From Bacteroidales bacterium (lineage in GTDB: Bacteria; Bacteroidota; Bacteroidia; Bacteroidales; UBA932), in NCBI GenBank assembly GCA_017959005.1, contig JAGDBO010000019.1, forward strand, positions 62,001 to 126,000: DNA of 64,000 nucleotides. The letters run 5' to 3'. The notes below the pieces were generated by a model that saw only the letters and a program-made list of their open reading frames with translations, made no database searches and was not told where the DNA came from. The translations under genes were made by a program, and so were the position numbers. This document shows positions 4,517 through 41,010 of this stretch, one piece after another. The first letter of the stretch is position 1. Each line of letters begins with the position of its first letter.

Positions 4517-6448
4517 ATGAGCGATCAGATAAAACACGAATGCGGCGTTGTTCTTATACGCCTTCTTAAACCACTGGAATACTACAAGGAGAAGTACGGC
4601 ACCTATATGTGGGGGCTCAACAAGCTCTATCTGATGATGGAGAAGCAGCACAACCGCGGTCAGGAGGGAGCCGGACTGGCCTGCGTAAAGATAGATTCCA
4701 AGCCGGGCAACGAGTACATCTTCCGTCAGAGAGCATTGGGCAATACCGCTATCGCCGAGTGCTTTGCAAATGTCAACAAGGAGATTGAAGAGGCAAGAAA
4801 GGGAGCGCTCTATGATAAAGATCTTCCTTATGTAGGAGAGGTTTACATTGGTCACCTGCGTTACTCCACCACCGGCCGCAGCGGCATGAGTTACGTTCAT
4901 CCGTTCCTTAGAAGAAACAACTGGAGAAACAGAAACCTCTGTCTTGCAGGCAATTTCAACATCACAAACGAGAGCGAACTCTTCAACCTTATGGTCTCCG
5001 GCCAGGGTCAGCATCCAAGAAGTGATGCAGATACTTTCCTCATTCTGGAGCAGATGGGAGCGCTGTTGGACGAGAACCACTCCGCACTCTACCGCAAATA
5101 CAAGAAACTGGGACTGAAGGGAGAGGCCTTAAACGCTAAGATTGAGGAGAATATAGACGTTGAGGGTGTTATAAGCGAGGCCTCAAAAGAGTGGGACGGC
5201 GGCTTCTGTATTGTGGGCTCCACCGGCAGCGGAGAGAGCTTTGTATTCAGAGACCGTTGGGGAATCCGCCCTTGCTTCTACTACATAGATAAGGAGGTTG
5301 TGGTTGCGGCATCAGAAAGAGCTGCTATTCAGACCTGTATGAACGTCAAGTTTGACAAGGTTCAGATACTCCAGCCGGGTGAGGCCATCACAATTCACAG
5401 AGACGGAAGGTACAACATCAGCTGCCTTGTAAAGCCGGCCAATCCTCGCCCTTGCTCGTTTGAGAGAATCTACTTCTCCAGAGGTAGTGACGCAGAGATT
5501 TACAATGAGAGAAAGATGCTGGGTAAACTCCTTATCCCTCAAATACTTAAGAATCATCCGAACTTGGATGACACGGTATTCTCATTCATTCCTAATACCG
5601 CGGAGGTGGCCTTCTTTGGAATGCTTGAGGGGCTTAACGAGTATCTCAATGATCTTAAATTCCAGAAGATTATAAAGGTTCCAACCTCCACAAAAGAGGA
5701 AGACCGCAAGACCATACGTGAGATTCTATCCCATAAGATACGCAGTGAGAAGCTGGCTATCAAGGATATAAAGATGAGAACCTTCATTGCTGAGGGCAGC
5801 ACCAGAAACGATATGGCAGCCCACGTTTATGACATTACATACAACAGCATAACTCCAAAGAAGGATTCAATTGCCGTCATAGATGACAGTATTGTTAGAG
5901 GTACAACCCTCAAACAGAGTATCATAAAGATTCTGAGCCGTTTGGAGCCAAAGGAGATTGTCATCATATCCTCCTCACCACAAATACGTTACCCGGACTG
6001 CTACGGTATAGATATGAGCCGTATGGGGGAATTCATTGCCTTCAACGCCGCAGTATCTCTCTTAAAGGAGAGAGGAATGGAGAAAGTTCTGGCGGATGTC
6101 TACAAAAAGTGCAAGAAGGCGGAGAGTATGCCGTTGGAGGAGTTTACAAGCACCTCCCCGAGCAAGAAAAAGCCAACCATTGAGAACTATGTAAAAGAGA
6201 TTTACGCTCCTTTTACAGAGGATGAGATTTCTAAGAAAATTGCTGAGTTAGTTACCCCTGAGGGGATTTCTTCAAAGGTCAAAGTCATTTTCCAAAGCAT
6301 AGAGAATCTCCACAAAGCCTGCCCTAACAACAAGGGAGATTGGTACTTTAGCGGAGACTACCCTACTCCGGGCGGAACTCGCACAGCCATAAGGGCATAC
6401 ATCAATTATTACGAGGGGAATCCTTATAAGAGAGGCTACAGCCGCTAA
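4517..6448 (+). CDS. Amidophosphoribosyltransferase-like protein, long form
   Basis: 643 residues from the ATG at 4517; an in-frame ATG at 4430 is upstream of the likely transcription start. The N-terminal Ntn amidotransferase domain has a short leader before the likely nucleophile Cys9 (HECGVV), then NRGQEGAG, HLRYSTTG and GNFNITNES. The C-terminal half has the PRPP-binding motif VIDDSIVRGTTLK. These are PurF hallmarks: glutamine plus PRPP gives phosphoribosylamine, the first committed purine step. Ordinary PurF has roughly 460-510 residues; this one carries extra sequence between the domains and a C-terminal extension. Similar long paralogues occur in Bacteroidales, where a canonical PurF is usually also present, so activity on the standard substrates is an inference. 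Confidence 0.82.
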   Translation: MSDQIKHECGVVLIRLLKPLEYYKEKYGTYMWGLNKLYLMMEKQHNRGQEGAGLACVKIDSKPGNEYIFRQRALGNTAIAECFANVNKEIEEARKGALYDKDLPYVGEVYIGHLRYSTTGRSGMSYVHPFLRRNNWRNRNLCLAGNFNITNESELFNLMVSGQGQHPRSDADTFLILEQMGALLDENHSALYRKYKKLGLKGEALNAKIEENIDVEGVISEASKEWDGGFCIVGSTGSGESFVFRDRWGIRPCFYYIDKEVVVAASERAAIQTCMNVKFDKVQILQPGEAITIHRDGRYNISCLVKPANPRPCSFERIYFSRGSDAEIYNERKMLGKLLIPQILKNHPNLDDTVFSFIPNTAEVAFFGMLEGLNEYLNDLKFQKIIKVPTSTKEEDRKTIREILSHKIRSEKLAIKDIKMRTFIAEGSTRNDMAAHVYDITYNSITPKKDSIAVIDDSIVRGTTLKQSIIKILSRLEPKEIVIISSSPQIRYPDCYGIDMSRMGEFIAFNAAVSLLKERGMEKVLADVYKKCKKAESMPLEEFTSTSPSKKKPTIENYVKEIYAPFTEDEISKKIAELVTPEGISSKVKVIFQSIENLHKACPNNKGDWYFSGDYPTPGGTRTAIRAYINYYEGNPYKRGYSR

Positions 6449-6479
6449 TTTGTTTATTGGATTATTTTAGTTAGTTTTG
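6449..6479 (+). promoter_or_regulatory. Promoter of the RRM gene
   Basis: TTTG (6449-6452), a 19-base spacer and TAGTTTTG (6472-6479) match the Bacteroidota consensus. The box begins right after the stop codon of the upstream gene, so the RRM gene is transcribed independently. The leader is about 20 bases. Confidence 0.65.
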
Positions 6480-6507
6480 CAGTGCGAACTAATTATTATA
6501 ACATTCT

Positions 6508-6819
6508 ATGAACATTTTTGTTTCCAGTCTGAACTTCAAGACCAGGAAGGAGGACCTTGAAAAGCTATTTGCACCTTACGGTGAAGTATTAACCAGCAGA
6601 ATTATAACAGACAAAATGAGACATCGTTCAAAAGGCTACGGTTTTGTAGAGATGAATGATGAGGCGGGACAGAAAGCCATTGAAGCCCTCAACGGAACAG
6701 AGTTTATGGGAAGAACAATCAATGTAGCTCTCTCCACCTCATCATCAAAGAAAACTCATCCGTCAAAAGAAACTTCAGATTTTCCGCCACTTAAGTCTCC
6801 TACATTTGAGGAGCTATAA
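6508..6819 (+). CDS. Small RNA-binding protein with one RRM domain
   Basis: 103 residues. One RNA recognition motif fills residues 1-75, with RNP-2 (IFVSSL) at 3-8 and RNP-1 (KGYGFVEM) at about 43-50. The tail is a Ser/Lys/Pro-rich region of about 25 residues that looks disordered. Small RRM proteins of this shape are common in Bacteroidota, which lack Hfq, and are thought to act in RNA binding and post-transcriptional control. The gene stands alone, with its own promoter and a strong terminator. Confidence 0.9.
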   Translation: MNIFVSSLNFKTRKEDLEKLFAPYGEVLTSRIITDKMRHRSKGYGFVEMNDEAGQKAIEALNGTEFMGRTINVALSTSSSKKTHPSKETSDFPPLKSPTFEEL

Positions 6820-6840
6820 TCTCTAAAGGTGAAACAGAAA

Positions 6841-6871
6841 AGGGATGGCCAAACGGTCATCCCTTCTTTTT
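6841..6871 (+). terminator. Intrinsic terminator after the RRM gene
   Basis: A 10-bp stem (6841-6850 with 6855-6864, one G-T pair) closes an AAAC loop and is followed by TCTTTTT. An A-rich run on the other side suggests it may also stop transcripts of the convergent gyrA-TPR unit. Confidence 0.85.
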
Positions 6872-6889
6872 CAGTCACGTTCAGTAACG

Positions 6890-8200
6890 TTATTCTTTTG
6901 TTGAGTGCTCCTCAACAAAAGTGTTGTACTTCTCGTAGTTAGCCTGATTCTCAGCGCTCTCCTCACGGAAACGGAAGAAGATCTGCTTCAGATACTGAGC
7001 GCAAGCAGTCTTAATCTCTGCATCCTCAGCAATATTGAAAGCTCTCTCAAATGGCTCAATAGCCTTCTTAAGACAGTCATTCATCTGATTCTGAAGCTCG
7101 TCATACTTCTTGTCATCCAACTCAGCGTTAGCCTTGTCCTGGAGGTCAAGAGCCATCTGATAGTAGAGGTCACCCTCGTTGAAAGGAGCGTAAACGTAGT
7201 TAGGATTGAGCTCTGCAGACTTACGATAGAGAGCAATAGCCTTTTCGTAATCCTTCATGTTCTTATAAAGGTTACCCTCTGCATAGAAGAGTGAAGCGTT
7301 TGTAGGCTCGTTCTCCTGTGCCTTGTGAATAACGGTGATAATCTTGTTAGGATCATCGTTGGTCTCAAGGTAAGTGTTGATGAGTGATACCAGAATACCC
7401 TGGTTTGTAGGGAATTTCTCAAAGCCCTCGTTAAGGAGTTCCTTGCACTTTACGGTGTCACCCTCAGCCTTGTAACTATCTGCCAGGTAAGCATATACAT
7501 CACCATCGAGGATGTCAAGTTTGCGGCATCTCTCAAAAATCTCAATGGCCTTCTTGCTCTCCTTTGCCAATACTGCAGCAAAACCTGCATAGATAAGAGC
7601 GTCCCTATCCATCTCGTTTACCATAGGGTGCTGTTTGCAGTTGAAAGATTTCTCAAATGCAGCGCAAGCATCTTTGTAATCTCCAAGAGCATAAGCACTC
7701 ATAGCACTCTGCCAATATCTCTGAGCAGCAGCGTTGATGAGAGGTTTCATATCCTTCTCAAGTGCGCCCTTATCAATTGCAGTGTTGTAACACTCCATTG
7801 CCCTGTCCAGAAGATCCTCTCCCGGAACCAGTGGTTTGGTAAGTTTGAAACCTACAACGGTGTTCTGAGGTCCGTAGTAAACGTTCTTGTCCAAGTATTT
7901 GTCTACGTTAAACTGCTTTCCGTTAAGCTCTTCCTGCTCGCTGCTAAGAACAACCTGTCCCTTCATAAGCATACGAGACTGATCATGAGTGTTACCAAGG
8001 AAGATTCCAAAAATGGAACCGTCAAAACCTTCTGAGTAAGCGTTTCCCAGCTTGATATAAGAAGCGGCATCACCCTTCTTTTCTACAGCTGCCTTTGCCT
8101 TCTCAATCTCTTTGAGAGCCTTTTGAGCTTCTTTTGACTGTGCATTTATCTGTGGAATAGAGATAAGCACAACAGCTAAAGCGATAAATAATCTTTTCAT
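6890..8200 (-). CDS. Exported tetratricopeptide repeat protein
   Basis: 436 residues. Residues 1-20 are a signal peptide (hydrophobic core ending in NAQ), so the protein is periplasmic or envelope-associated. Repeated 34-residue TPR-like helices run through the rest, clearest around residues 155-350 (for example EGNLYKNMKDYEKAIALYRKS and YAPFNEGDLYYQMAL). It starts 21 bases after the gyrA stop on the same strand and is probably co-transcribed. TPR proteins scaffold protein complexes, but no partner or function can be named here. Confidence 0.85.
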   Translation of the reverse strand: MKRLFIALAVVLISIPQINAQSKEAQKALKEIEKAKAAVEKKGDAASYIKLGNAYSEGFDGSIFGIFLGNTHDQSRMLMKGQVVLSSEQEELNGKQFNVDKYLDKNVYYGPQNTVVGFKLTKPLVPGEDLLDRAMECYNTAIDKGALEKDMKPLINAAAQRYWQSAMSAYALGDYKDACAAFEKSFNCKQHPMVNEMDRDALIYAGFAAVLAKESKKAIEIFERCRKLDILDGDVYAYLADSYKAEGDTVKCKELLNEGFEKFPTNQGILVSLINTYLETNDDPNKIITVIHKAQENEPTNASLFYAEGNLYKNMKDYEKAIALYRKSAELNPNYVYAPFNEGDLYYQMALDLQDKANAELDDKKYDELQNQMNDCLKKAIEPFERAFNIAEDAEIKTACAQYLKQIFFRFREESAENQANYEKYNTFVEEHSTKE

Positions 8201-24700: not shown

Positions 24701-25449
24701 AGATGGCCTGGTGCCTCTATATGGCCGGCTTCCGTGTTAAGGATGTTCACATGACAGACCTTACCAGCGGAAGAGAGAACCTTAAGGATGTTCAGATGAT
24801 TGTATTCGTTGGAGGATTCTCCAATGCAGATACACTGGGTTCAGCTAAGGGATGGGCAGGTGCCTTCCTCTATAACGAGAAGGCTAACAAGGCATTAAAT
24901 GATTTCTACACACGCAAGGATACACTGAGTTTGGGTATCTGCAACGGCTGTCAGTTGATGGCTGAGCTGGGACTCATTACTCCTTCTCATAGAGACAGAT
25001 CTCCTAAGATGCTCCACAACCTCTCACACAAGTTTGAGAGCGAGTTTGTAGGAGTGGAGATTCCAAAGAGCAGTTCCATCCTTCTTAAATCTCTGGAAGG
25101 AAGTAAGTTGGGAATATGGGTTGCTCACGGAGAGGGACGCTTCTCATTCCCTGCAGGCAACCTCAAAAAGAGTGGTAAGATAGAGACTGAGGGCAAGACG
25201 GATATGGAGATAGCAGTAAAGTATAACTATCGGGAGTATCCTGCAAACCCTAACGGTTCTCCGCTTGGCATTGCGGGTGTTTGCAGTGCAGACGGGCGTC
25301 ACCTTGCAATGATGCCTCACCCGGAGAGGTGTATAAGACCTTGGAACTGGGCATATTACCCGGACGCTCGCAGAGCAGTGGACCAGACAACTCCTTGGAT
25401 TGAGATGTTCAAGAACGCACTCAAGTGGTGCAAGAAAAAAGCAAAATAG
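21718..25449 (+). CDS. purL: Phosphoribosylformylglycinamidine synthase, single-chain type
   Basis: 1243 residues, the large single-chain form that fuses PurS-like, two AIRS-like and glutamine amidotransferase parts. Visible marks are QVNSEHCRHKIFNG (about residue 170), THNFPTTVEPFNGAATGTGGE, a second ATP-grasp-like half, then a class I amidotransferase domain from about 985 with nucleophile Cys in GICNGCQLMAELG and catalytic His/Glu in MPHPERCIRPWNW. It converts FGAR, ATP and glutamine to FGAM, the fourth purine step. The PIN-PhoH gene follows after 22 bases on the same strand and is probably co-transcribed. Confidence 0.95.
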   Translation: MILFFKSKAGSVIAVKSATKLKADDIKALSWLLGNAKLLKSESVSGHFTGPRREMITPWSTTAVEITQNMNIKGVERMEEYFPTEYKKEGNKSVAVYDKMLQRLYEGLDQQIFTVNKKPDEIVYIKDFEKYNLKEGLALSKDEIKYLENLSKKIGRPLTDSEVFGFSQVNSEHCRHKIFNGTFIIDGKEKESSLFKMIKKTSNLNPNLIISAYKDNCAFLQGPKIKMFYPASADKPSLFKTKERETVISLKAETHNFPTTVEPFNGAATGTGGEIRDRMAGGKGSFPIAGTAVYMTSYPSFSAKSKPRKWLYQSPEEILTKASNGASDFGNKFGQTIICGSLLTFEHAEKQKGVEKENPKFGYDKVIMLAGGIGYAKKVDAAKETPENGDKIVLLGGDNYRIGMGGGAVSSVNTGQYGNEIELNAIQRANAEMQKRDYNAIRGLAEMDKNPIISVHDHGAGGHLNCLSELVEETGGKIDISKLPIGDPTLSLKEIIGNESQERMGLALKDKDVALLKRIAERERAPFYEIGQVTSDHRFTLKDEKSGKAAIDLQMSDMFGSAPKTFMEDVTAPYKFNPLKFSAEKFTEYLKQVLALESVACKDWLTNKVDRSVTGLIALQQCCGEIQLPLNNLAVTAIGYDNKEGIATSIGHAPVAALIDSAAGSRLAIAEALTNIVWTPVKGGLKGVSLSANWMWPSRNRGEDARLYNAVEAASDFACALGINIPTGKDSMSMTQSYPDGTKVLAPGTVIISAAAPTKDVSKTLSPTLKADKGGVILYIPFTESAPELGGSAFAQVLGQIGNKAPDVSDPKYFAKCFEAVQKVVEDDLAVAGHDVSAGGLITSVLEMCFATTKGGIALDGIQLPMTEFLFSERPGVILQVPSKNLKAVKQIAKEIKVMEIGKVVSKRKVSILGRINLNVEKLRDVWFSTSYLMETRQTEKKCAKERFTNYKKQPLKFKFPKNFNGKFTPVKDEERKNAPIAAIIREKGSNGDREMAWCLYMAGFRVKDVHMTDLTSGRENLKDVQMIVFVGGFSNADTLGSAKGWAGAFLYNEKANKALNDFYTRKDTLSLGICNGCQLMAELGLITPSHRDRSPKMLHNLSHKFESEFVGVEIPKSSSILLKSLEGSKLGIWVAHGEGRFSFPAGNLKKSGKIETEGKTDMEIAVKYNYREYPANPNGSPLGIAGVCSADGRHLAMMPHPERCIRPWNWAYYPDARRAVDQTTPWIEMFKNALKWCKKKAK

Positions 25450-30657: not shown

Positions 30658-31974
30658 CTATTTCTTCTCTACCTCCACATCATTCTTAAACTCAACGGAT
30701 TTAGACGTGCCGTCCTTATAGTACCACACAGCAAAACCCTCTTTTACTCCGTTCACATAGTTAGCAAGCAACTTTCTACCGTCCTTATAGAAGTACGTTC
30801 CGGGACCGTTAGCCTTACTATCTTTCATCTCTCCCTCATATCTATCTCCGTTAGCAAACTTTATAATTCCAAAACCGTGAATATGTCCGTTTTTCCATTC
30901 ACCATCGTAAGAAGAGCCATCCGGAGAAGATGCTATGCCTTTGCCGTTTGGCATATCCTCTTTCCACTCTCCCACATACTTTTTGCTATCCGGGAACCAG
31001 CAAGTACCCTGCCCATCTCTCTTATCATTCTTCCACTCTCCCTCATACTTGCCGCCGTCTCCATACTGGCACACTCCGTATCCATCTCTCAGATCTGCCT
31101 TCCACTGACCGTCATAGTGACCTCCGTCTATAAAGTGAGCAATGCCCTTCCCCTCTCTGCAACCGTTAGCCCACTCGCCCTCATATACATAACCGTTTGT
31201 CTTAGTGAGAGTTCCAACGCCGTGCTTAACATCGTTCTTATACTCTCCCACATATTTGTTTCCGTCATTGTAGAAGGTAGTTCCTACACCCTCTCTATTT
31301 CCATCTTTCCACTCACCCTCATATCTCTCTCCATCTGAGAATTTATATACTCCATATCCAGTCCTCTTATTGTTAACCCATTCACCCTCATAAATATCTC
31401 CGTTATGGAACTTGTAAACTCCCTTTCCGTTCTTAAGGTCAAACGCCCAATCTCCCTCATACATATCTCCGTTCGTATAGAAGAACTTTCCCTTTCCGCT
31501 GATAAAATGTTTACTCCACTCTCCCTCATACCTGTTACCGTCTGCATAGTAATATATTCCAAAACCGTCTCTTAGCCCATCCTTAAACTCACCCTCATAT
31601 CTGTCTTTGTTTGCATAATAAAAGATACCCTTACCGCAGACCTCATCATCCTTCCACTCACCCACATACTTACCGCCGTCATCATATGTATAGGTACCCA
31701 TACCGTTCTTCATATTGCTTCTCCATTCTCCGTCATACTGATTATCTCTCTTCCCCTCATAAAAAACACCGTGCCCATCCTTTAAGACTATACCGTTCAC
31801 AATCTTAACCTGACCTACATAAGTTCCTGCCTCCTCGTGGATTATAGTATCCTTAGGAGTCTGAGCCATTGCCAAAGATGGCATAGCTACAGAGAACAAA
31901 ACAAACGCAACAGCAAACAGAGCCAAAGAAAAACCTCTTCTGCTCAAACGGATTTTATAAGAATAATTATTCAT
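30658..31974 (-). CDS. Exported MORN-repeat protein
   Basis: 438 residues from the ATG at 31974; the longer frame starts at a TTG. Residues 1-38 form a signal peptide ending SLAMAQ. After a short lead the chain is 14 consecutive 23-residue MORN repeats of the form YEGEWKDG..GxGxxxxxDG, then a degenerate fifteenth and a charged tail. MORN repeats fold as elongated beta-hairpin stacks and often bind lipid or protein. In this phylum exported versions are usually of unknown role. It lies between hydF and a glycosyltransferase on the same strand. Confidence 0.92.
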   Translation of the reverse strand: MNNYSYKIRLSRRGFSLALFAVAFVLFSVAMPSLAMAQTPKDTIIHEEAGTYVGQVKIVNGIVLKDGHGVFYEGKRDNQYDGEWRSNMKNGMGTYTYDDGGKYVGEWKDDEVCGKGIFYYANKDRYEGEFKDGLRDGFGIYYYADGNRYEGEWSKHFISGKGKFFYTNGDMYEGDWAFDLKNGKGVYKFHNGDIYEGEWVNNKRTGYGVYKFSDGERYEGEWKDGNREGVGTTFYNDGNKYVGEYKNDVKHGVGTLTKTNGYVYEGEWANGCREGKGIAHFIDGGHYDGQWKADLRDGYGVCQYGDGGKYEGEWKNDKRDGQGTCWFPDSKKYVGEWKEDMPNGKGIASSPDGSSYDGEWKNGHIHGFGIIKFANGDRYEGEMKDSKANGPGTYFYKDGRKLLANYVNGVKEGFAVWYYKDGTSKSVEFKNDVEVEKK

Positions 31975-32022
31975 ATCAAAAATATATTCAATAAAACACC
32001 CCAAAAAGGGCTTGTAAAAATA

Positions 32023-33249
32023 CTAAAAATTAGTCAAAAGCCTCAAAAAACGCTTAAACCCCTCAACCGTAAACAGCCCGTTCATATAGGCCAGTGCCAG
32101 CCCGTAGTTTGTAACAGGCACCCCCTTCTCCACAAACGGCCTCAGTCTCTCTCTTATAACTCTCGATGTCACAACGCATCCCCCGCATTGCACCACCAGC
32201 GCATATCTGCTACCGTTCTCCCCATCTTCTACAACTCCCTCAATGTTATCAACACCACTCACAAACTCAAACTCCAACTTTTTTCCCGTCACCTTTCTCA
32301 TCAGCGCCGGTATCTTTACCCTCCCGATATCTTCACAAGTTGATCTGTGAGAGCAAGATTCCAATATCAACACTCTGTCTCCATCTGAAAGTGATGCAAT
32401 CTTTTCTACTCCCGATAGATACATCTCAAACGGCCCTTTCAACCTTGCCAACAATATACTGAAACTGCCAAGCGGAACATCAGAAGGCACTACAGAAGCA
32501 ACCTCCTTAAAGGCCTGGCTGTCACACACTACCAGCTTAAACCCATACTCATTCTTCCCCATTGGAAACATCCCGGAAACCTCCAACGGTTGGCACACCG
32601 TTACAACACCCCTATTATCCAACACGCTCCTAATTCCCATAACCTCAGGCAGTATCAGCCTCCCCTCCGGAGCCTCTCCATCTATAGGACATACAAACAG
32701 CACCCTATCCCCTTCATTCACAATCCCATCCAACAGTCCCTTACTTTTATGAAGTTTGTTTAGTTCTTCCGCTATTAATCCCAATAACTCATCAACATTC
32801 CCTCCAATTGTGCAGGAAAAACGCACAACAGAGCAGCCACACTCTTCCGCTAAAGCAGCCAACACGTCATCGCTCAATGACTCAATATCTTCCTGATTAT
32901 GAACCAGTATAAACGGCACACGTTTCTCCTTAAGGACCTTAATCAACCTCCTGTCATCTTCCGTCAACCCGCCTCCTGTAAACACCACCAGCGCCAGGTC
33001 CGCATAACCTGCTGCAGAAAGACTCTTCTCCACGCGCAATACACCCAACTCCCCAACATCATCAATACCCGCAGTATCAATTACATTGCACGGTCCTACC
33101 CCAAAAATTTCCATCCTCTTACGCACAGGATCCGCCGTTGTTCCCGCCACATCAGAAACAATAGCCACCTTCTGTCCAACCAGCATATTAACTAATGAAC
33201 TCTTCCCCACATTCCTTCTCCCCACCACCACAATATTCTTAACTTCCAT
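32023..33249 (-). CDS. hydF: [FeFe]-hydrogenase maturation GTPase HydF
   Basis: 408 residues, usual length. The GTPase domain has G1 GRRNVGKSS at 10-18, an effector loop SDVAGTTADPV and G3 DTAGIDD. A central dimerisation part follows. The C-terminal iron-sulfur region has Cys299-x-His301 and, 52 residues on, QCGGC at 354-358. The family motif is CxH followed by HCxxC, so the usual His before the Cys pair is Gln354 here. HydF is the scaffold that delivers the 2Fe subcluster to HydA. HydE, HydG and the hydrogenase are not in the window. The MORN gene follows after 48 bases. Confidence 0.9.
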   Translation of the reverse strand: MEVKNIVVVGRRNVGKSSLVNMLVGQKVAIVSDVAGTTADPVRKRMEIFGVGPCNVIDTAGIDDVGELGVLRVEKSLSAAGYADLALVVFTGGGLTEDDRRLIKVLKEKRVPFILVHNQEDIESLSDDVLAALAEECGCSVVRFSCTIGGNVDELLGLIAEELNKLHKSKGLLDGIVNEGDRVLFVCPIDGEAPEGRLILPEVMGIRSVLDNRGVVTVCQPLEVSGMFPMGKNEYGFKLVVCDSQAFKEVASVVPSDVPLGSFSILLARLKGPFEMYLSGVEKIASLSDGDRVLILESCSHRSTCEDIGRVKIPALMRKVTGKKLEFEFVSGVDNIEGVVEDGENGSRYALVVQCGGCVVTSRVIRERLRPFVEKGVPVTNYGLALAYMNGLFTVEGFKRFLRLLTNF

Positions 33250-33336
33250 AACGCAAAACCATTATCTTTTCATTTCTTTCCACAAAGATGCAGATTTTGC
33301 TCCAGATAAAAAACTTGTATCTTTTCACAGTATGTA

Positions 33337-33891
33337 TTACATTTGCTCCCAGAAAGGCATGTTACTTGGAAGAGCGGAAAGGTCTGCCGCCGACCCGTAT
33401 ACGGGAGAAAGTATGAGGAGCTGGCCGTCCTCACGAGTAGCTTGCCTTTTCATTTTTTCTAAACCCTCTTGATCTATCTGCCTCCATCCAACTACTTCGA
33501 TATGTTCTCTTATTTGGTATAAATCAATTACAACAACAGAATTCAACTCTCCAGTATGAATTGCAACTTTATAATCTGGATGAGTTATCGGCTGTGTAGC
33601 CCCGTGCATATTAGGTGTATACAAGGCCTGTTTTAGTATATTACGACTGCTTTCCGGAGAGAGTTCTGGATGGCTTTTCATATTCTTGATAAAGATGTTT
33701 TTCTTTATTATCAGAGGTCTATTATTTGCTCCGATTGCTTTATCAAGAATTCTGGAAATGGGAGGTAACTCCACGTTTCTCTTACCGAAACGGAATTCAT
33801 CATCCACTATTTCATCTATACTTCTTATTTTTTCAATTATAAGATTACCATATTCATCTATTGGATTTCCCTGATTATCTTCAAGTACCAT
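33337..33891 (-). CDS. PBECR-type (barnase/EndoU/colicin-like) nuclease-domain protein
   Basis: 184 residues, no signal peptide. Residues ~45-170 resemble the nuclease-like domains found at the ends of giant polyvalent proteins of Bacteroides phages and conjugative elements: FIKNMKSHPELSPESSRNIL, then HPDYKVAIHTGE, then IEVVGWRQIDQEGLEKMKRQA and EDGQLLILSP. Here the domain is in a small free-standing protein. It lies 30 bases downstream of the first 52-residue membrane-protein gene on the same strand. The family placement is from memory of the pattern; RNase activity is an inference, and no immunity gene of known type is adjacent. Confidence 0.6.
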   Translation of the reverse strand: MVLEDNQGNPIDEYGNLIIEKIRSIDEIVDDEFRFGKRNVELPPISRILDKAIGANNRPLIIKKNIFIKNMKSHPELSPESSRNILKQALYTPNMHGATQPITHPDYKVAIHTGELNSVVVIDLYQIREHIEVVGWRQIDQEGLEKMKRQATREDGQLLILSPVYGSAADLSALPSNMPFWEQM

Positions 33892-33921
33892 AATTATTTG
33901 AGTTATCTATCATCACATCAC

Positions 33922-34080
33922 CTATCCCTGATATCCGCTCCTAAATCCTTCCATAAACGCCCCCCAGTTAGAGATCACCTCCATCACAAACCAAGTAAAC
34001 GCTGCAACAACTAGTAGAATAATGAGTTTCCACTTGTTCTCCTTCACAAAAGAGAGAACCTTTTTCATCATTTCTTTCAT
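33922..34080 (-). CDS. 52-residue single-pass membrane protein, copy 1
   Basis: Too short for many gene callers. It begins MKEMMKKVLSF, has a basic N-terminus, one transmembrane helix at about 19-36 (LIILLVVAAFTWFVMEV) and ends WGAFMEGFRSGYQG. A canonical Shine-Dalgarno GGAGGA lies 10 bases upstream, unusual in this window. A near-identical copy is at 34756-34914; conservation of frame, length and both ends in the two copies supports a real gene. It is predicted to sit in the inner membrane with an N-in topology. Function unknown. Confidence 0.75.
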   Translation of the reverse strand: MKEMMKKVLSFVKENKWKLIILLVVAAFTWFVMEVISNWGAFMEGFRSGYQG

Positions 34081-34093
34081 CTTTCTTTCCTCC
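33947..34093. repeat. Direct repeat, copy 1 (147 bp)
   Basis: Covers most of the copy 1 membrane-protein gene plus its ribosome-binding site. It matches 34781-34926 with only four substitutions and a one-base deletion. Homology stops just outside, within the gene's last codons and just beyond the ribosome-binding site. Confidence 0.9.
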
Positions 34094-34168
34094 AATAATT
34101 TAGGTTATTAATAGTTTTAAACTTCATTCAGATTCATCCAATAATTTTTTCCTTTATCATAGGATTTC

Positions 34169-34772
34169 TCAACTCCTTTTAATAACTTTGCAAACAGAAG
34201 TTGTAAGGGAGTTCATGCGGGTTTGTGAAGTTGTGCCGCATTGTTCTTCACGGAGCGATTCCTTAGCAGTTTCGGCAGACTGTTTAACTGTAGTATGGCG
34301 GTTATACACTTCTTTTTTATTAGCACCGTAGGATGTTTTAAAAACTCCTGCGGTGTTAATGTTCCAGAGGGTCCCATCTCCCGAAAGTTCAATCATTAAT
34401 GTATTGTTGTGCTCATCTTTGAGTTGTAGCATATATGTTTGATTGCCATCTCGTATCTTTCCCTCCTTAATGACTTCGTAATTCTTTGCCACAGCCTCAA
34501 CAAACAGAATAACAGAGTCATAACCGGCGTCTCTTATCTCATCTCCGTGCCTTGCCTCAATATGCAACAAACCGTAACCTTCTTTAGTCTTCGGATTGAT
34601 AATAAGACCTTCACTGAGATAGATTGGTGATTGGTGCAGCCGTAAGTCCCGTGTCCTGAGTGATTTCTCCAAAAGCAATGCTCCCGTCGGACGCAAGCAC
34701 AAATTGCCGTCCGTTCTCATCTACTTCATCAGACAACTTGTAGGAGCATCCAAAATTACCTTCCGTATCCAT
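34169..34772 (-). pseudogene. Frameshifted PBECR-like/polyvalent-domain protein
   Basis: An ATG at 34772, inside the end of the copy 2 membrane-protein gene, opens a frame (MDTEGNFGCSYKLSDEVD...) that stops at 34611 after 53 residues. The rest of the domain continues in another frame to 34169. The frames part at a tandem 7-base duplication, GATTGGT twice at 34622-34635. Removing one copy gives a clean 198-residue protein reading GLTAAPIYLSEGLI across the join. The restored protein (HIEARHGDEIRDAGY, YMLQLKDEHNNTLMIELSGDG, WNINTAGVFKTSYG) resembles a domain common in Bacteroides mobile-element polyvalent proteins, often annotated as a putative endoribonuclease. Confidence 0.8.
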
Positions 34773-34914
34773 TATTAAACCCTTCCATAAACGCCCCCCA
34801 GTTAGAGATAACCTCCATCACAAACCAAGTAAACACTGCAACAATCAGTAGAATAATGAGTTTCCACTTGTTCTCCTTCACAAAAGAGAGAACCTTTTTC
34901 ATCATTTCTTTCAT
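34756..34914 (-). CDS. 52-residue single-pass membrane protein, copy 2
   Basis: Same length and design as copy 1: MKEMMKKVLSF, a helix with LIILLIVAVFTW, and an end WGAFMEGFNNGYGR. It differs at a few residues in the helix and at the C-terminus. GGAGGA precedes the ATG by 9 bases. It has a good promoter at 34949-34980 and overlaps the start of the frameshifted nuclease-like gene by 17 bases, so the two were made as a coupled pair. Function unknown. Confidence 0.75.
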   Translation of the reverse strand: MKEMMKKVLSFVKENKWKLIILLIVAVFTWFVMEVISNWGAFMEGFNNGYGR

Positions 34915-34926
34915 CTTTCTTCCTCC
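34781..34926. repeat. Direct repeat, copy 2 (146 bp)
   Basis: Partner of 33947-34093, offset by 834 bases. It covers the copy 2 membrane-protein gene and its ribosome-binding site. Flanking sequences are unrelated to those of copy 1. Confidence 0.9.
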
Positions 34927-34948
34927 CGATAGTAAAATTTAAATCGGC

Positions 34949-34980
34949 CAAATATAACGCACAACTCCCTGCCCACCAAG
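34949..34980 (-). promoter_or_regulatory. Promoter of the two-cassette unit
   Basis: On the minus strand CTTG (34977-34980), a 20-base spacer and TATATTTG (34949-34956). The leader to the copy 2 start is about 30 bases. No clear promoter was seen ahead of copy 1, which may be read from this one. Confidence 0.6.
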
Positions 34981-35083
34981 CATTTGCGTACATTTGACTC
35001 TATTGTATGAAAGATTTGTACAATCCTCAAATTGTACCGTATGATTTACCGGAATGCCAGTGCAGATTGTTCAATTTGATGCA

Positions 35084-35121
35084 TAAAAAGAGCTCGGCAC
35101 TTTATGGTACCGAGCACTCTT
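35084..35121 (-). terminator. Possible second terminator downstream of the fimbrillin-like gene
   Basis: A hairpin with AAGAG/CTCTT and CTCGG/CCGAG pairing (35088-35121, 2-base bulge) is followed on the minus strand by a run of five T. It lies 44 bases beyond the stronger terminator. The 308 bases between the cassette and the fimbrillin-like gene (34915-35222) otherwise hold only the cassette promoter. Confidence 0.5.
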
Positions 35122-35164
35122 CTTTCTGTTGGATTTTTAGTTTACTCTTTGTCTCCCCGATAGA

Positions 35165-35200
35165 TAAAAAAAGCAGCAACCCTCAAATGAGAGTTGCTGC
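35165..35200 (-). terminator. Intrinsic terminator of the fimbrillin-like gene
   Basis: Minus-strand hairpin GCAGCAAC/GTTGCTGC (arms 35193-35200 and 35173-35180) with an inner CTC/GAG pairing, followed by seven T. It lies 22 bases past the stop codon. Confidence 0.85.
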
Positions 35201-35222
35201 AAAATAGTATAAAATGAAACCT

Positions 35223-37712
35223 CTATTCAATGTGAATAGAACCCATTGCAGTATTAGTACTTGTTGCTTTCGTGGTTAAGATCAGTTTTATGTAACGATA
35301 GTAGGAATTTATCGAGCTTGTTGAGGTATATGTATTTGTTCCTGAGGCAATTGTAAATGCCTGGATATCGCTATATGAAGAACCGTCTACAGAGCCTTGA
35401 AGTGTAACTACATTACCATTTGCTGTGCCGTTACATTTTCCCTGGAATGAAACAGTGGTAGCAGATGAGGCTATCCTCACAACAATATAGTGAGAATTAG
35501 CTGTTTGGAACTTAACCTTAGGAGAAGATGCATAATCACTTCCTGCTGAAATTGTCATATTAGAAGTACCGTCACTCTTTCCACCATCCCAATTAAATGG
35601 GAGAGCTTCACCTGAAGTGGCTGAAGCCTGTTTAACAGTTACTGTTGTATTTACAGAAGGATTATCTGATTCTTTAATGATAAGTGTACCCAGAGAAGAC
35701 TCAGAAGCACCTCCATCTCCTGTCGCTGTAAGAGTAAATACATTTCCGTTACGCGTTACTGTGAAACCACTGCCAGTTGTCGAGTAAGTTACTTCATAGT
35801 CAGCTGTTGCCGTAACATTAACAAAATTATCGACGGACCCTCCTATAACAGCTGGATTAGGAGTAGCAGAGACGCTGTGCGTTGACTCTTTTACAAGGAA
35901 ATTCTTAATCTGCCATCTTCCTGGATTCGAACTAGTTGCAAGATATTTAAATCTGAATTGAACAACATTGCCACAATAAGGATCAAGCGGCACAGCTGTA
36001 TGAACAGCAGTATTGCTCATTGAAGCTGGATATGTAGGAATAACCAAATTTGTCCATGCTCCATCGCCAACTTTAATTTGAAGAGTAGCTTGAGTCTGAG
36101 CGGTAGCAACATCAGCAAAGAAATTTGTGGTATGATCAAATGATAGAGTTGCGTATGTAACTCCGTTAAGATCAATAGATGGTGAAACAAGATATGATTC
36201 TACATCAGACGTAGTACCATATGCACTTGCCTGTACTCCGTATGAGGTGTTAGTCCATATGTCAGTAAGACTTCCGGTACTAATATTTGTCACGGTGAAA
36301 TCAGTATGACTATCTATCAGTGTATTATTGTACGGAAGTGCCTTTGGAGTTACTGGTGGAACATAAGTACCTTCTTCAATTAAAACGTTATTAACATAGG
36401 CTCGTTTTGCAGAAGTTGCAATTGTTACCTTAGATTTTGCGGTTGCGGCTGGAATATTAAAGATATACGCCTTATAGGAAGCTCCAAGAGATGAACCATC
36501 ATTGGTTGCCTCAATAGGTTCCCCGCCATCTACAGATACCCATATCTTAGCATTGTCACTTCCATATTGTTTTGCATTTACAGTAATATGGGATGCGGCA
36601 CTCAAATTAATTCCTAGAGTAGTCAAGTAACCTGGGTTACTACTGGTGCCAATGCGAATTTCTCCAGATGTAGTGGTTGTATATATTCGTTCACATGTGC
36701 TATATTTAGAACTAGGAAGCGCAGGTGTAGAAGACCCGTTGATTAATGTACCATTTTCAGCAGTTCCATCCTGCCAAGAATAATCATCAGCGAAAGGAAG
36801 ATTAAGGGCTGCATCATCCTCAACATTTGCATCATTAATATTTACCTTCATAGTAGTTATTTTTCCTGGTGCTAGTTTAATACCGCCCGCAGGAATTGTC
36901 ACTGTTTTTGAAATAGCATAAGATTCTGTATTAGCAACAAATGTTAAACTGGAACTTTCTGCAAGTGTTTGAGGATAAACAATGATGTATGCACCATTAG
37001 TTCCATCTATAGCAAACCAAGTACTAGGGATAAAGTTTGCATTAACGGTCTTTGATTGGTTACCATATAAGGCACCAACCGTCTGATTTGTTACATCCAA
37101 ATAGACACGCCCTACAAGATTCTCTGTCGCAGTAATAGAAACTAAATTAGGATGTTGTCCAGTAATTTTTGATGTTCCAGTAGCATCCACAAAAACGACT
37201 TTTAGAATAGCACCAGCTCTAGCAAACTCAAGATTATTAACGGTAGTACTAGCCGGGGAAACATTGAATTTCTTTGAAAACATGATATCTGCTGCTCCAT
37301 CAAAAGAACTTGCAGTAGGATTTTGATTTACTGGTATTTCTACTTTAGCTCCAGAAGCACTAACACCGAGAGTATTATAGGGATAATACGCATATAAATC
37401 ATCTGATACAGATGTTGTTCCAGTGAAAGAAGCAGTAGTTGCCGGACTAGAAATACCCGTTGTAAACTTATAATTAGTGGAAGTGCCATTTGTTACACCA
37501 ATAGCATCACCTACTGACCAATACGGAGTGGTACCTGACATTTCTGTCTTAGTATCAGACTTTGGAGTAGGATTACCAGCAATTATTGTAACATCTACCA
37601 AGTCTTTATCTTTTGGTTCAATTGTTAACGAACCATTCGTATCCTTGCTACATGAGGATATGATAGAAGCAGCAAATAGTACTGCAAAAAGGGATTTAAA
37701 AAACTTCTTCAT
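35223..37712 (-). CDS. Fimbrillin-like surface lipoprotein with adhesin-type C-terminal domains
   Basis: 829 residues. A lipoprotein signal ends at SSCSK (Cys21). Residues ~40-290 look like a fimbrillin (Mfa-like) domain: TKTEMSGTTPYWSVGDAIGV, YAYYPYN, LEFARAGAILKV and a closing LAPGKITTMKVNI. Next comes a beta-rich segment, then a choice-of-anchor/cleaved-adhesin-like jelly roll (about 440-620, SFDHTTNFFADV, GRWQIKNFLV). A BACON-like Ig domain follows (SATPNPAVIGG, VKQASA), and a last beta-domain to the end. It is probably exposed at the cell surface in adhesion. Composition is Thr/Ser/Asn-rich and the DNA looks more AT-rich than its neighbours. It forms an operon with the 49-residue gene upstream. 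Confidence 0.82.
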   Translation of the reverse strand: MKKFFKSLFAVLFAASIISSCSKDTNGSLTIEPKDKDLVDVTIIAGNPTPKSDTKTEMSGTTPYWSVGDAIGVTNGTSTNYKFTTGISSPATTASFTGTTSVSDDLYAYYPYNTLGVSASGAKVEIPVNQNPTASSFDGAADIMFSKKFNVSPASTTVNNLEFARAGAILKVVFVDATGTSKITGQHPNLVSITATENLVGRVYLDVTNQTVGALYGNQSKTVNANFIPSTWFAIDGTNGAYIIVYPQTLAESSSLTFVANTESYAISKTVTIPAGGIKLAPGKITTMKVNINDANVEDDAALNLPFADDYSWQDGTAENGTLINGSSTPALPSSKYSTCERIYTTTTSGEIRIGTSSNPGYLTTLGINLSAASHITVNAKQYGSDNAKIWVSVDGGEPIEATNDGSSLGASYKAYIFNIPAATAKSKVTIATSAKRAYVNNVLIEEGTYVPPVTPKALPYNNTLIDSHTDFTVTNISTGSLTDIWTNTSYGVQASAYGTTSDVESYLVSPSIDLNGVTYATLSFDHTTNFFADVATAQTQATLQIKVGDGAWTNLVIPTYPASMSNTAVHTAVPLDPYCGNVVQFRFKYLATSSNPGRWQIKNFLVKESTHSVSATPNPAVIGGSVDNFVNVTATADYEVTYSTTGSGFTVTRNGNVFTLTATGDGGASESSLGTLIIKESDNPSVNTTVTVKQASATSGEALPFNWDGGKSDGTSNMTISAGSDYASSPKVKFQTANSHYIVVRIASSATTVSFQGKCNGTANGNVVTLQGSVDGSSYSDIQAFTIASGTNTYTSTSSINSYYRYIKLILTTKATSTNTAMGSIHIE

Positions 37713-38226: not shown

Positions 38227-39840
38227 ATGAAGAAAATCATTGCATTAGCAAGTTCAACTTTGGTATTGTTTGCATTAGCAACAAATTGCGGAAAGAGCAC
38301 AGGTCCTGCTGCTATCGTTGAACCGGACAATGGTGATGTTACAACCGTAACTACTTATTCAGGAACTGCTGAAATCTCAGTTCCTTGCGGTACTAAGGTT
38401 GTTTATGTTCATTACAAAGCGAAGAGTGGCGATAAGGTTATAGAAGTTCCTGTAACCCCATCAATTACAAAGCCTTCCAATGGTCGTGCTTTGGAGCCTT
38501 TCGGGATTGTAAAGTTAACATTTGAGGCACCAACCCCTACTGCAGTTAGCGTTTCCTTTAAGAGTCATCAGAAGGGTGATGATTACTACTGCCTGGAGAA
38601 TTTTGCGGTAACTACTCCTAATACAAAGAATCCTGCTTCAAATACTTGGACATCAGTACCTAATGCAAAAGTTAATTTGCCTGAGCCTGCATCTTACGTT
38701 ACAGCAGATGGTGGCAGAACAAACTATCACTCAAGCGGTTGTGTAATGTTTGAGGATAGCTGGCCTACTAACAACCGTACTGCAGCAGGTGCTTATGACA
38801 CTGATTTCAATGACTGTGTTGTAGATTACGACCTTGAGGCTAGCGTAGTAGATGATGATAAACTTGCAGCTGAGGGCTGGAGAGAGCAAGTTAAGGTTGT
38901 TCTTCATGTTAGAGTAGTTGGTGGTTCAGATCCTTGCCGTGTAGGTTTGATTCTTGAGGACTTCAATATGAACAACGTTGAGTCTATTGAGGTATATAAG
39001 ACTTTGGATAGTTACAACAACCCTCACGGAGAACTTCCTGAGTTTACAAAGGTTACACTCCAGGAGAACTCACTCCACTATGATCCGCTTCCAGACACTG
39101 AGTTCAAGTCAACCAACCCTACTCGTCCTGCAGTTGAGATTGGTAGAATGAACATTTTGAATGACAAGACTCGCGGTGCAGGTACAGAAACTTACACTTA
39201 CACCAACGGAGCGTTTAGCAATACTACAGTATTCAATCCTAATGTAAATAAATACTGGCCGACTCCTCATACAGAACAGTATGACCCAGAGCTTGAAAAC
39301 CTTTACAAGACTAACACAAAGTGGACATTGAGTTATGTTCAGAATCAGGGATTTTACAATGCTCTTCCTGGTTATGTTAACGTAGCCGGCGGTCTTTACA
39401 CTTACACAGTTATCTATCACATGAAGGCTCGTGCTGAGATGACAGCTGCTGAGAGTGCTGCTGTTAAGGCTAATATGATTCAAACTGTTAACAACACTAC
39501 TAAACAGAACTTCTATATCATTAACAAGAACTACTATCCTGTTCACCTTAGCGGATATTATCCTGGAGACTTTACTCCTAAGACTTCAGTAGTTTACGCA
39601 ACCAAGTACGAACAGGTTAAGGCTGCTAATGCAGATAAGTTGGATCCATCTGTTCCTTACCTTTCTAAGGACGGTCTTGTATGGGGAGTTAAGTGCCCTG
39701 TTAACACAAAGCACGTATGGAACAAGCTTAACTTCAGTGAGGCTTATCCTGACTTCTTCAAGTGGCTGGATGCAAACGGAGAGCAGTATCAAGACTGGTA
39801 CATGAATCCTGTTGGAAAATATGTATCTTGCTGGTGGTAA
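38227..39840 (+). CDS. LruC-domain (DUF4842-like) exported protein
   Basis: 537 residues. A signal peptide of ~20 residues ends at ATNCGK, a plausible but imperfect lipobox. Residues ~40-125 form a beta-domain. Then comes the LruC signature MFEDSWPTNN...AYDTDFNDCVVDYDLEA (about 175-210), whose acidic DxDFND loop suggests calcium binding. The long C-terminal region is rich in Tyr/Asn/Pro and ends CWW. LruC-domain proteins are surface or periplasmic lipoproteins of Bacteroidota with unknown function. The gene is divergent from the fimbrillin-like operon and ends at a strong terminator, so it is monocistronic. Confidence 0.82.
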   Translation: MKKIIALASSTLVLFALATNCGKSTGPAAIVEPDNGDVTTVTTYSGTAEISVPCGTKVVYVHYKAKSGDKVIEVPVTPSITKPSNGRALEPFGIVKLTFEAPTPTAVSVSFKSHQKGDDYYCLENFAVTTPNTKNPASNTWTSVPNAKVNLPEPASYVTADGGRTNYHSSGCVMFEDSWPTNNRTAAGAYDTDFNDCVVDYDLEASVVDDDKLAAEGWREQVKVVLHVRVVGGSDPCRVGLILEDFNMNNVESIEVYKTLDSYNNPHGELPEFTKVTLQENSLHYDPLPDTEFKSTNPTRPAVEIGRMNILNDKTRGAGTETYTYTNGAFSNTTVFNPNVNKYWPTPHTEQYDPELENLYKTNTKWTLSYVQNQGFYNALPGYVNVAGGLYTYTVIYHMKARAEMTAAESAAVKANMIQTVNNTTKQNFYIINKNYYPVHLSGYYPGDFTPKTSVVYATKYEQVKAANADKLDPSVPYLSKDGLVWGVKCPVNTKHVWNKLNFSEAYPDFFKWLDANGEQYQDWYMNPVGKYVSCWW

Positions 39841-39891: not shown

Positions 39892-39911
39892 GTTTCTTTT
39901 TGTTTTGCTTG

Positions 39912-39983
39912 TAGCCCCGGGCGGAATCGAACCGCCATCTAAGGTTTAGGAAACCTCCATTCTATCCGTTGAACTACAGGGCC
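39912..39983 (-). tRNA. tRNA-Arg (anticodon CCU)
   Basis: Read on the minus strand: acceptor GGCCCTG pairs with CGGGGCT using wobble at the ends, the anticodon loop is TTCCTAA with anticodon CCT, and the T arm contains GGTTCGATTCC. It is 72 bases with no encoded CCA. It lies 31 bases downstream of fabH on the same strand and could be processed from that transcript. Confidence 0.93.
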
Positions 39984-40014: not shown

Positions 40015-41010
40015 TTAGTAAGCCCACCTGTAGAAGATTGCACCCCAGGTAAAACCGGCACCGAATGCGGAGAAGATGAGGTTGTCACCCTTCTTGAACT
40101 TGTTCTTGAAATACCAGATAGCCAACGGAATGGATGTTCCGGCGGTGTTACCGAATTTATCAATGTTAATCAGAACCTTGTCCTTCTCCAGACCCATTCT
40201 TCTGGCTGTGGCGTCAATGATTCTGAGGTTTGCCTGGTGAGGCACGAGGTATGCAATATCCTCAGCCTTAAGGTTGTGGCGCTTCATCATCTCCTCAGAG
40301 ACATCCGCCATACCAACAACTGCGTGTTTGAAGACCTGCTGGCCCTCCTGGTGGATGAAGTGGAGACGCTTTGCAACTGTGTCTTCTCTAGCAGGATACA
40401 GAGATCCGCCGGCACTCTGATAGAGGTATCTTCTACCTATACCGTCTACGTGGAGGATGGAGTCTTGGAAACCAAGAGAATCATCCTCAGAAGGCTCAAT
40501 CATAAGAGCAACTGCCGCATCTCCAAAGAGTGGACAGGTTGAACGGTCCTGATAATCAACAATACCGCTCATTCTCTCACCGCAGACAAGAACAATCTTC
40601 TTGTATTCTCCTGTCTCTATGAATCTTCTGATGGTCTCAAATGTGAAAAGGAAACCGCTGCATCCGGCGTTGGTGTCATAACCCCAGGCGTTTTTAATAC
40701 CAACCTTATCTGAGATGATATTAGCTGTTGCAGGAAACTGCATATCGGGCGTAACACAGTGACAGAGAAGCATCTGAACCTCAGATGGATCTGTATGTGT
40801 AGCCTTCAGCAGTCTCTCTACAGCTATTGCTCCCATGTAGGAGGTTCCCAGACCGTCTTCCTTGAGGATGTGTCTCTCTTTGATACCGACTCTGGACATA
40901 ATCCATTCGTCAGAGGTATCAACCATTGTTGAGAGCTCATCGTTGGTAAGGACGTAATCCGGGATGTAGGCCTCAATGCCGGTAATTACGGCTCTTGGTT
41001 TGCTATGCAT
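40015..41010 (-). CDS. fabH: Beta-ketoacyl-ACP synthase III
   Basis: 331 residues. The catalytic triad is visible: Cys117 in DTNAGCSGF, His in VPHQANLRI and Asn in GNTAGTSIPL. It condenses acetyl-CoA (or a branched primer) with malonyl-ACP to start fatty-acid synthesis. The start overlaps the end of rpmF by 8 bases, and yceD precedes rpmF. This yceD-rpmF-fabH order is a conserved bacterial arrangement, which supports the call. Branched-primer preference cannot be read by eye. Confidence 0.96.
   Translation of the reverse strand: MHSKPRAVITGIEAYIPDYVLTNDELSTMVDTSDEWIMSRVGIKERHILKEDGLGTSYMGAIAVERLLKATHTDPSEVQMLLCHCVTPDMQFPATANIISDKVGIKNAWGYDTNAGCSGFLFTFETIRRFIETGEYKKIVLVCGERMSGIVDYQDRSTCPLFGDAAVALMIEPSEDDSLGFQDSILHVDGIGRRYLYQSAGGSLYPAREDTVAKRLHFIHQEGQQVFKHAVVGMADVSEEMMKRHNLKAEDIAYLVPHQANLRIIDATARRMGLEKDKVLINIDKFGNTAGTSIPLAIWYFKNKFKKGDNLIFSAFGAGFTWGAIFYRWAY

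Follow-up and report, generated by a model that had tools for sequence, protein, structure and literature searches.

A small, probably resident membrane-protein gene beside hydF in one Bacteroidales family, with phage polyvalent-protein domains probably settled behind it

We analysed a window of 64,000 nucleotides from a Bacteroidales bacterium (GTDB lineage UBA932; GenBank assembly GCA_017959005.1, contig JAGDBO010000019.1, positions 62,001 to 126,000) in which two copies of a gene for a 52-residue membrane protein are each followed by a different gene. An original prediction, made from the DNA letters without database searches, suggested that the two units could resemble polymorphic toxin loci, in which the small protein stays constant, serving for immunity, anchoring or delivery, while nuclease-like effectors are exchanged. 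What turns out to matter most is a gene that this prediction did not mention: hydF, which lies directly beyond both units. The small membrane protein looks like a long-term resident next to hydF, unlike a dedicated toxin partner, and the genes behind it encode domains of giant phage proteins that probably settled between the resident gene and hydF.

The genes lie on the minus strand in the order small1 (34,914-34,756), a PBECR-like gene (34,772-34,169, in two frames), small2 (34,080-33,922), LPD13 (33,891-33,337) and hydF (33,249-32,023; [FeFe]-hydrogenase maturation GTPase, TIGR03918, E = 8.1e-125); the coordinates of both small genes include their stop codons. As predicted, the small genes are near-identical, with starts 834 bp apart: they share 152 bp at 96% identity (34,776-34,926 versus 33,942-34,093), and their 52-residue, single-helix products are 88% identical. 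The predicted ribosome-binding sites were also found, and they are strong Shine-Dalgarno-like sites (GGGAGG at 34,922-34,927 for small1 and GGAGG at 34,089-34,093 for small2, both on the minus strand). Comparing 33,200-35,300 with itself gave no other direct repeat between the two units (E up to 1), so homology does end near the edges of the small gene, as had been claimed, except that the shared stretch includes the leader. We also considered a tandem duplication of a whole small-LPD13-PBECR unit followed by complementary losses; this is unsupported, as the self-comparison shows no further shared sequence. A third match to the small protein in this genome reached only E = 0.33, which leaves two convincing copies genome-wide.

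We searched 299 genomes of the family with the 52-residue protein (E ≤ 0.01) and matched 32, at least two of them (L029 and L031) by chance matches in long open reading frames (ORFs). We then used a profile of 27 small-protein sequences (A1), in which G45, F46 and G49, just after the helix, are nearly invariant. Across the 39 genomes of the genus, 10 of the 42 profile rows lay in frames of 222-429 amino acids and were dropped; the 32 that were kept, five of them weak (E = 4e-5 to 4e-4), place the small gene in 31 genomes. At 25 of the 32 places, the small gene is divergent from hydF. At three it is co-directional (twice in the window and once in G237, the other member of a two-genome clade with the window's genome), and in these two genomes PBECR or LPD13 sequences follow. 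Three more places are in genomes with no HydF match, and the last is in G252, where the HydF domain match is on another contig and the N-terminal part of hydF lies divergent beside the small gene. Counted by genome, the small gene is divergent from hydF in 26, co-directional in two and without a HydF match in three. Eight genomes of the genus have no accepted small gene, and five of these have a HydF match.

The small gene accompanies hydF, and in most of the genomes examined also a tRNA-Arg. In the three genomes without a HydF match (G003, G233 and G190, at loci L033, L034 and L035), the small gene is nevertheless kept, following fabH and tRNA-Arg, which means that it may work independently of HydF. 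The small genes are evolutionarily constrained: the ratio of nonsynonymous to synonymous rates (dN/dS) is 0.12-0.22 over seven pairs, including 0.21 for the window's own two copies, a value that rests on few changes. (An eighth pair, the window and G258, was left out because silent sites were saturated.) Matches of the small protein to a PADLOC 1TM effector model (E = 0.0011), NCBIfam (0.0083, far below the cut-off) and PHROGs (0.023) were set aside because they have low scores and cover the membrane helix.

Across the order, HydF was found in 179 of 295 genomes, and the small-protein profile matched 16 (at 1e-3). These include the window's genome and G010, a member of the same family whose small gene lies beside its own hydF; among the other 14, nine matches are in frames of 258-726 amino acids and five in short frames. 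Short membrane-type ORFs in other families, in G479 (L106) and G480 (L109; on a different contig from the HydF match), carry the C-terminal pattern of the small protein, whole or in part. Given these look-alikes, there may be a wider class of such small proteins. Bar these two ORFs, a divergent small gene beside hydF was seen in this family only among the genomes searched.

The gene behind small1 lies in two overlapping frames, a 53-residue piece 1 (34,611-34,772) and a piece 2 that keeps an HIExxH motif (34,169-34,720), and is broken near 34,630. Against Pfam PBECR1 (PF18809), piece 2 scores 24.6 bits (E = 3.7e-5), below the curated cut-off of 27.6, and the corresponding protein of G237 matches no Pfam family at E = 0.01; we therefore call the sequences PBECR-like and not members of PBECR1. 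In 10 aligned PBECR-like rows, H60, H65, T114 and S120 (numbering of the G237 protein) are invariant. The domain is predicted to have a BECR-like fold, and its product is most likely a BECR-fold endoribonuclease. In the window, the PBECR-like gene begins within the 3' end of small1, with 17 nt in common (stop codon included), and the frames also overlap in G237, which suggests coupled translation.

Pfam PBECR1 itself is found in two of the 39 genus genomes, while our PBECR-like profile (A4) found 14 places in 11 of 298 family genomes. Among these are solo ORFs of 189-223 amino acids in G119, G262, G267, G184 and G134. In G047 (L134:4797-6338), the domain forms the C-terminal end of a 514-residue protein, joined in frame to a complete homoserine O-succinyltransferase (HTS, metA). 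In G262 (L133), the PBECR-like gene (6,371-6,910) starts directly at the stop of a gene for a DUF4493/DUF6359 protein and ends against a tRNA-Lys. There are further solo Pfam PBECR1 genes at L044 and L045 (in the window's own genome, on contigs C20 and C13) and at L043 in G108, the last with an N-terminal match to a Cro/C1-type helix-turn-helix just under the cut-off. The G237 protein had no match in plasmid and phage collections. PBECR sequences had none in PADLOC or NCBIfam, and in PHROGs there was one weak match, for the G237 protein (0.046).

The gene behind small2 is clearer. Its 184-residue product is LPD13 (PF18825, E = 4e-41; 140.6 bits against a cut-off of 27), matched over profile positions 6-139 of 139, with an AlphaFold2 pLDDT of 80. 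A different polyvalent-domain gene behind each copy is plain for LPD13, but the PBECR-like frame is broken and scores below the cut-off. Likewise, of the two nuclease-like partners that had been proposed, the PBECR-like one fits by its predicted fold, but the intact 184-residue product is LPD13, a domain without an assigned activity. The LPD13 fold prediction (from an alignment of eight of nine sequences, L115 being omitted as a near copy of L114) shows only a weak, ambiguous resemblance to RelE/colicin D-type folds, and the LPD13 and PBECR-like profiles do not align. LPD13 had no match in plasmid and phage collections, PADLOC, NCBIfam or PHROGs, and a scan of IMG/VR with LPD13 alone gave no relative. 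Searches of PDB sequences with LPD13 and PBECR returned nothing relevant for either.

The two domains do occur together in G532, where one ORF of 532 amino acids (L082:655-2253) has LPD13 followed by a PBECR-like domain. Scanning IMG/VR with this ORF gave six loci. In IMG/VR contigs, these domains lie within open frames of 2,188-4,182 amino acids. On the same strand, the G532 ORF is preceded by a 60-residue membrane-protein ORF, which the small-protein profile does not match.

Comparison with G237 gives some of the history. The DNA upstream of small1 and the start of the PBECR-like gene have counterparts in G237 (79% over 34,630-35,050), while the surroundings of small2 do not, and identity between small1 and small2 (96%) exceeds that between small2 and the G237 gene (90%). 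We therefore take small1 to be the older place and small2 a later duplicate. The start of the window's PBECR-like gene is closest to the intact gene of G237, which we call PBECR-a (76% over 99 bp; the genes of G262 and G119 reach 66-69%). The rest is closest to the PBECR-b gene of G262 (69% over 376 bp) and, over a 127 bp overlap, to a remnant in G237 (84%). Because the two parts have different closest types, the gene looks like a join of two types, with its frame broken at the join. Behind the small gene, the window has PBECR-b and LPD13, and G237 has PBECR-a and a PBECR-b remnant. All three re-oriented small genes (two in the window, one in G237) have GGGAGG or GGAGG before the start, versus none of the 25 other copies examined, two of which have AGGA.

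We propose, as the probable explanation, that the 52-residue membrane protein is a resident family gene beside hydF, near tRNA-Arg(CCT) at a varying distance, and that PBECR-like and LPD13 domains, which belong to giant phage polyvalent proteins but also occur solo, sometimes settled between it and hydF. In the common ancestor of the window and G237, the small gene would have been turned round and gained a strong ribosome-binding site, and a PBECR gene would have been placed on its 3' end with the frames overlapping and, presumably, translation coupled. A PBECR tandem may then have partly collapsed, leaving a broken a-type/b-type join in the window and one intact gene plus one remnant in G237. 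After the split, the small gene would have been duplicated in the window's lineage, with LPD13 behind the second copy. The PBECR-like protein, a putative endoribonuclease, would persist in some species as a solo effector, whereas here it is broken. The small protein would serve here as an upstream leader, and what it does on its own account probably belongs with its native place rather than with the effector.

One part of this explanation can be examined through the interval between tRNA-Arg(CCT) and the small gene. In 20 genomes examined for flanks, 15 have this tRNA, 14 of them together with the small gene. The two are 29-153 bp apart in eight genomes and 1.3-5.0 kb apart in six (G158, G097, G003, G233, G190 and the window). 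Because this distance varies, the interval may be an insertion hot spot. Its content differs as well: G003 and G190 have ORFs that, from sequence knowledge, we take to be glycosyltransferase-like, and the window has an 829-residue ORF and a DUF4842 ORF. A PBECR fragment in G218 is some 190 bp away from the tRNA-Arg. Weighing against a hot spot, no repeat that could mark an attachment site turned up: the window's own tRNA end matches only itself and the repeats of the interval hold no copy of it, although integrases were not looked for; the tRNA end taken from relatives, a poor test, has no match in the window either.

An alternative that is possible, but rather unlikely, is that the PBECR and LPD13 pieces are functionless leftovers of a decayed mobile element. 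The broken PBECR frame in the window is what decay would leave. Of the 12 PBECR-like places outside the window, five are partial or interrupted (G051, the second place in G134, G218 with stops inside, and two contig-end pieces in G110, maybe one gene cut by the assembly). LPD13 is also sporadic, in two of 39 genus genomes and two of 295 order genomes. But the window's LPD13 ORF is intact over the whole domain, and intact solo PBECR genes at unrelated loci have dN/dS of 0.18 (G237/G119) and 0.11 (G184/G267), as against 0.25 for LPD13 (window/G258), all with dS above 1.

The named relatives are assemblies from Bacteroidales or Bacteroidia, and several carry a rumen or omasum label, so the window's bacterium is presumably from the rumen. 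We place little confidence in a bolder account. On that account, a family of solo BECR-type RNase domains, released from giant phage polyvalent proteins, would rove in rumen Bacteroidales and attach behind resident genes at their 3' ends, where they would borrow translation. They would overlap the small gene, directly adjoin a lipoprotein-like gene in G262 and be fused in frame to metA in G047. At hydF, the small gene would have been inverted, given a strong ribosome-binding site and duplicated, yielding one membrane-protein leader per domain; such a leader could position the effector at the membrane or hold it in check there. LPD13 would then be a further BECR-like nuclease.

The polymorphic-toxin-like cassettes of the original prediction, with a constant partner gene and the nuclease-like gene behind it exchanged, now appear quite improbable. 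Within the two-genome clade there is something to be said for them: the same small gene is followed by PBECR-a, PBECR-b or LPD13, the small-gene and PBECR frames overlap in both genomes, and the duplicate small gene is constrained. This pattern of a constant gene with exchanged effectors was not seen in the other genus and family genomes examined. The prediction proposed its own test, linkage of the small gene to varied nuclease-like genes elsewhere. When we looked for PBECR and LPD13 (other kinds of effector were not searched for), they were behind the small gene in only two of the 31 genus genomes that have it. They were not found in the other 29, although for two of these (G178 and G240) no more than 250 bp of contig remains beyond the small gene, leaving the following DNA unseen. 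The idea of a toxin partner fails this test, as in nearly all other genomes of the genus that have it the small protein is a neighbour of hydF without these effectors. Conversely, the small-protein profile found nothing at 11 loci around the PBECR-like sequences of nine other family genomes, except in G267, where the small gene lies beside hydF, about 4 kb from the PBECR gene, and does not precede it. (In G218 and at one of the G110 pieces, the contig stops immediately ahead of the fragment, and the upstream side is missing.) Pfam found little in the LPD13 and PBECR ORFs beyond these domains: no other domain over the cut-off and no trafficking or delivery domain. The small-protein alignment had no relative in IMG/VR viral contigs.

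That the tandem copy or the frame break is a metagenome-assembly error is scarcely credible: the draft genome is incomplete (86% complete, in 22 contigs) and the break falls in a short repeated stretch, but the small genes are not identical (4% of positions differ, silent sites at a higher rate), different genes follow them, and the re-oriented arrangement recurs, with one copy, in the separate assembly of G237.

As for the other features, the 829-residue ORF (35,223-37,712, minus strand) is lipoprotein-like by eye and had no match in Pfam, and the DUF4842 gene (38,227-39,840, plus strand) matches PF16130 (E = 1.2e-16). Beyond them are the tRNA-Arg (CCT; 39,911-39,983, minus strand), the other flank of the variable interval, and a gene at 40,015-41,010 (minus strand) that we take, from sequence knowledge, to be fabH-like; homology among loci shows the same order in relatives. 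Directly downstream of hydF, an ORF of 448 amino acids (30,658-32,004) is made up of many YxGEWKxxxxxGxG repeats that resemble one another and, by eye, MORN repeats. Part of the small1 leader, CTATCGGGAGG, occurs five times in the window with at most one mismatch (at 25227, 32320, 32408, 34922 and 52220), versus 0.8 expected.

This locus illustrates how giant phage proteins can give rise to domains that stand alone as genes on the chromosome of a gut-type bacterium. The intact-looking solo genes (in G237, G119, G262, G267, G184 and G134) form a small set on which to ask whether the products are RNases of use to the host, perhaps in defence against phages. Our analysis also describes a small membrane-protein gene that accompanies a hydrogenase-maturation gene in one bacterial family.

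The closest known systems are those of Iyer et al. 2017 (PMC5512222). In the portion of that work considered here, PBECR domains are predicted RNases with solo versions, LPD1-LPD40 are given no precise function, and LPD13 is not among the seven that are potentially enzymatic; small ORFs near polyvalent genes are described as reminiscent of polymorphic-toxin cassettes. The window draws on the same stock of domains, solo PBECR and LPD domains of phage and conjugative-element polyvalent proteins. Unlike the systems in that portion, its domains are on a host chromosome behind a duplicated resident gene, no phage or type IV secretion system gene was recognised among the few neighbours run through Pfam, and the Pfam model detects the PBECR-like sequences poorly or not at all. 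The BECR toxin domain of CdiA-CT BWH57 (PDB 7M5F; PMC8616854) is 18% identical; unlike that system, as far as the source's account of it goes, no CdiA-like delivery protein and no CdiI-like immunity gene were recognised here. A literature search for hydF, Bacteroid and "small membrane protein", a narrow test, found no paper, and a limited search for LPD13 by name found nothing on topic. Compared with other Bacteroidales hydF neighbourhoods, hydF itself is ordinary (TIGR03918), and the divergent small membrane-protein gene is the difference. Solo domains are already known in kind; within this limited literature search, their pairing with a duplicated resident gene appears to be new.
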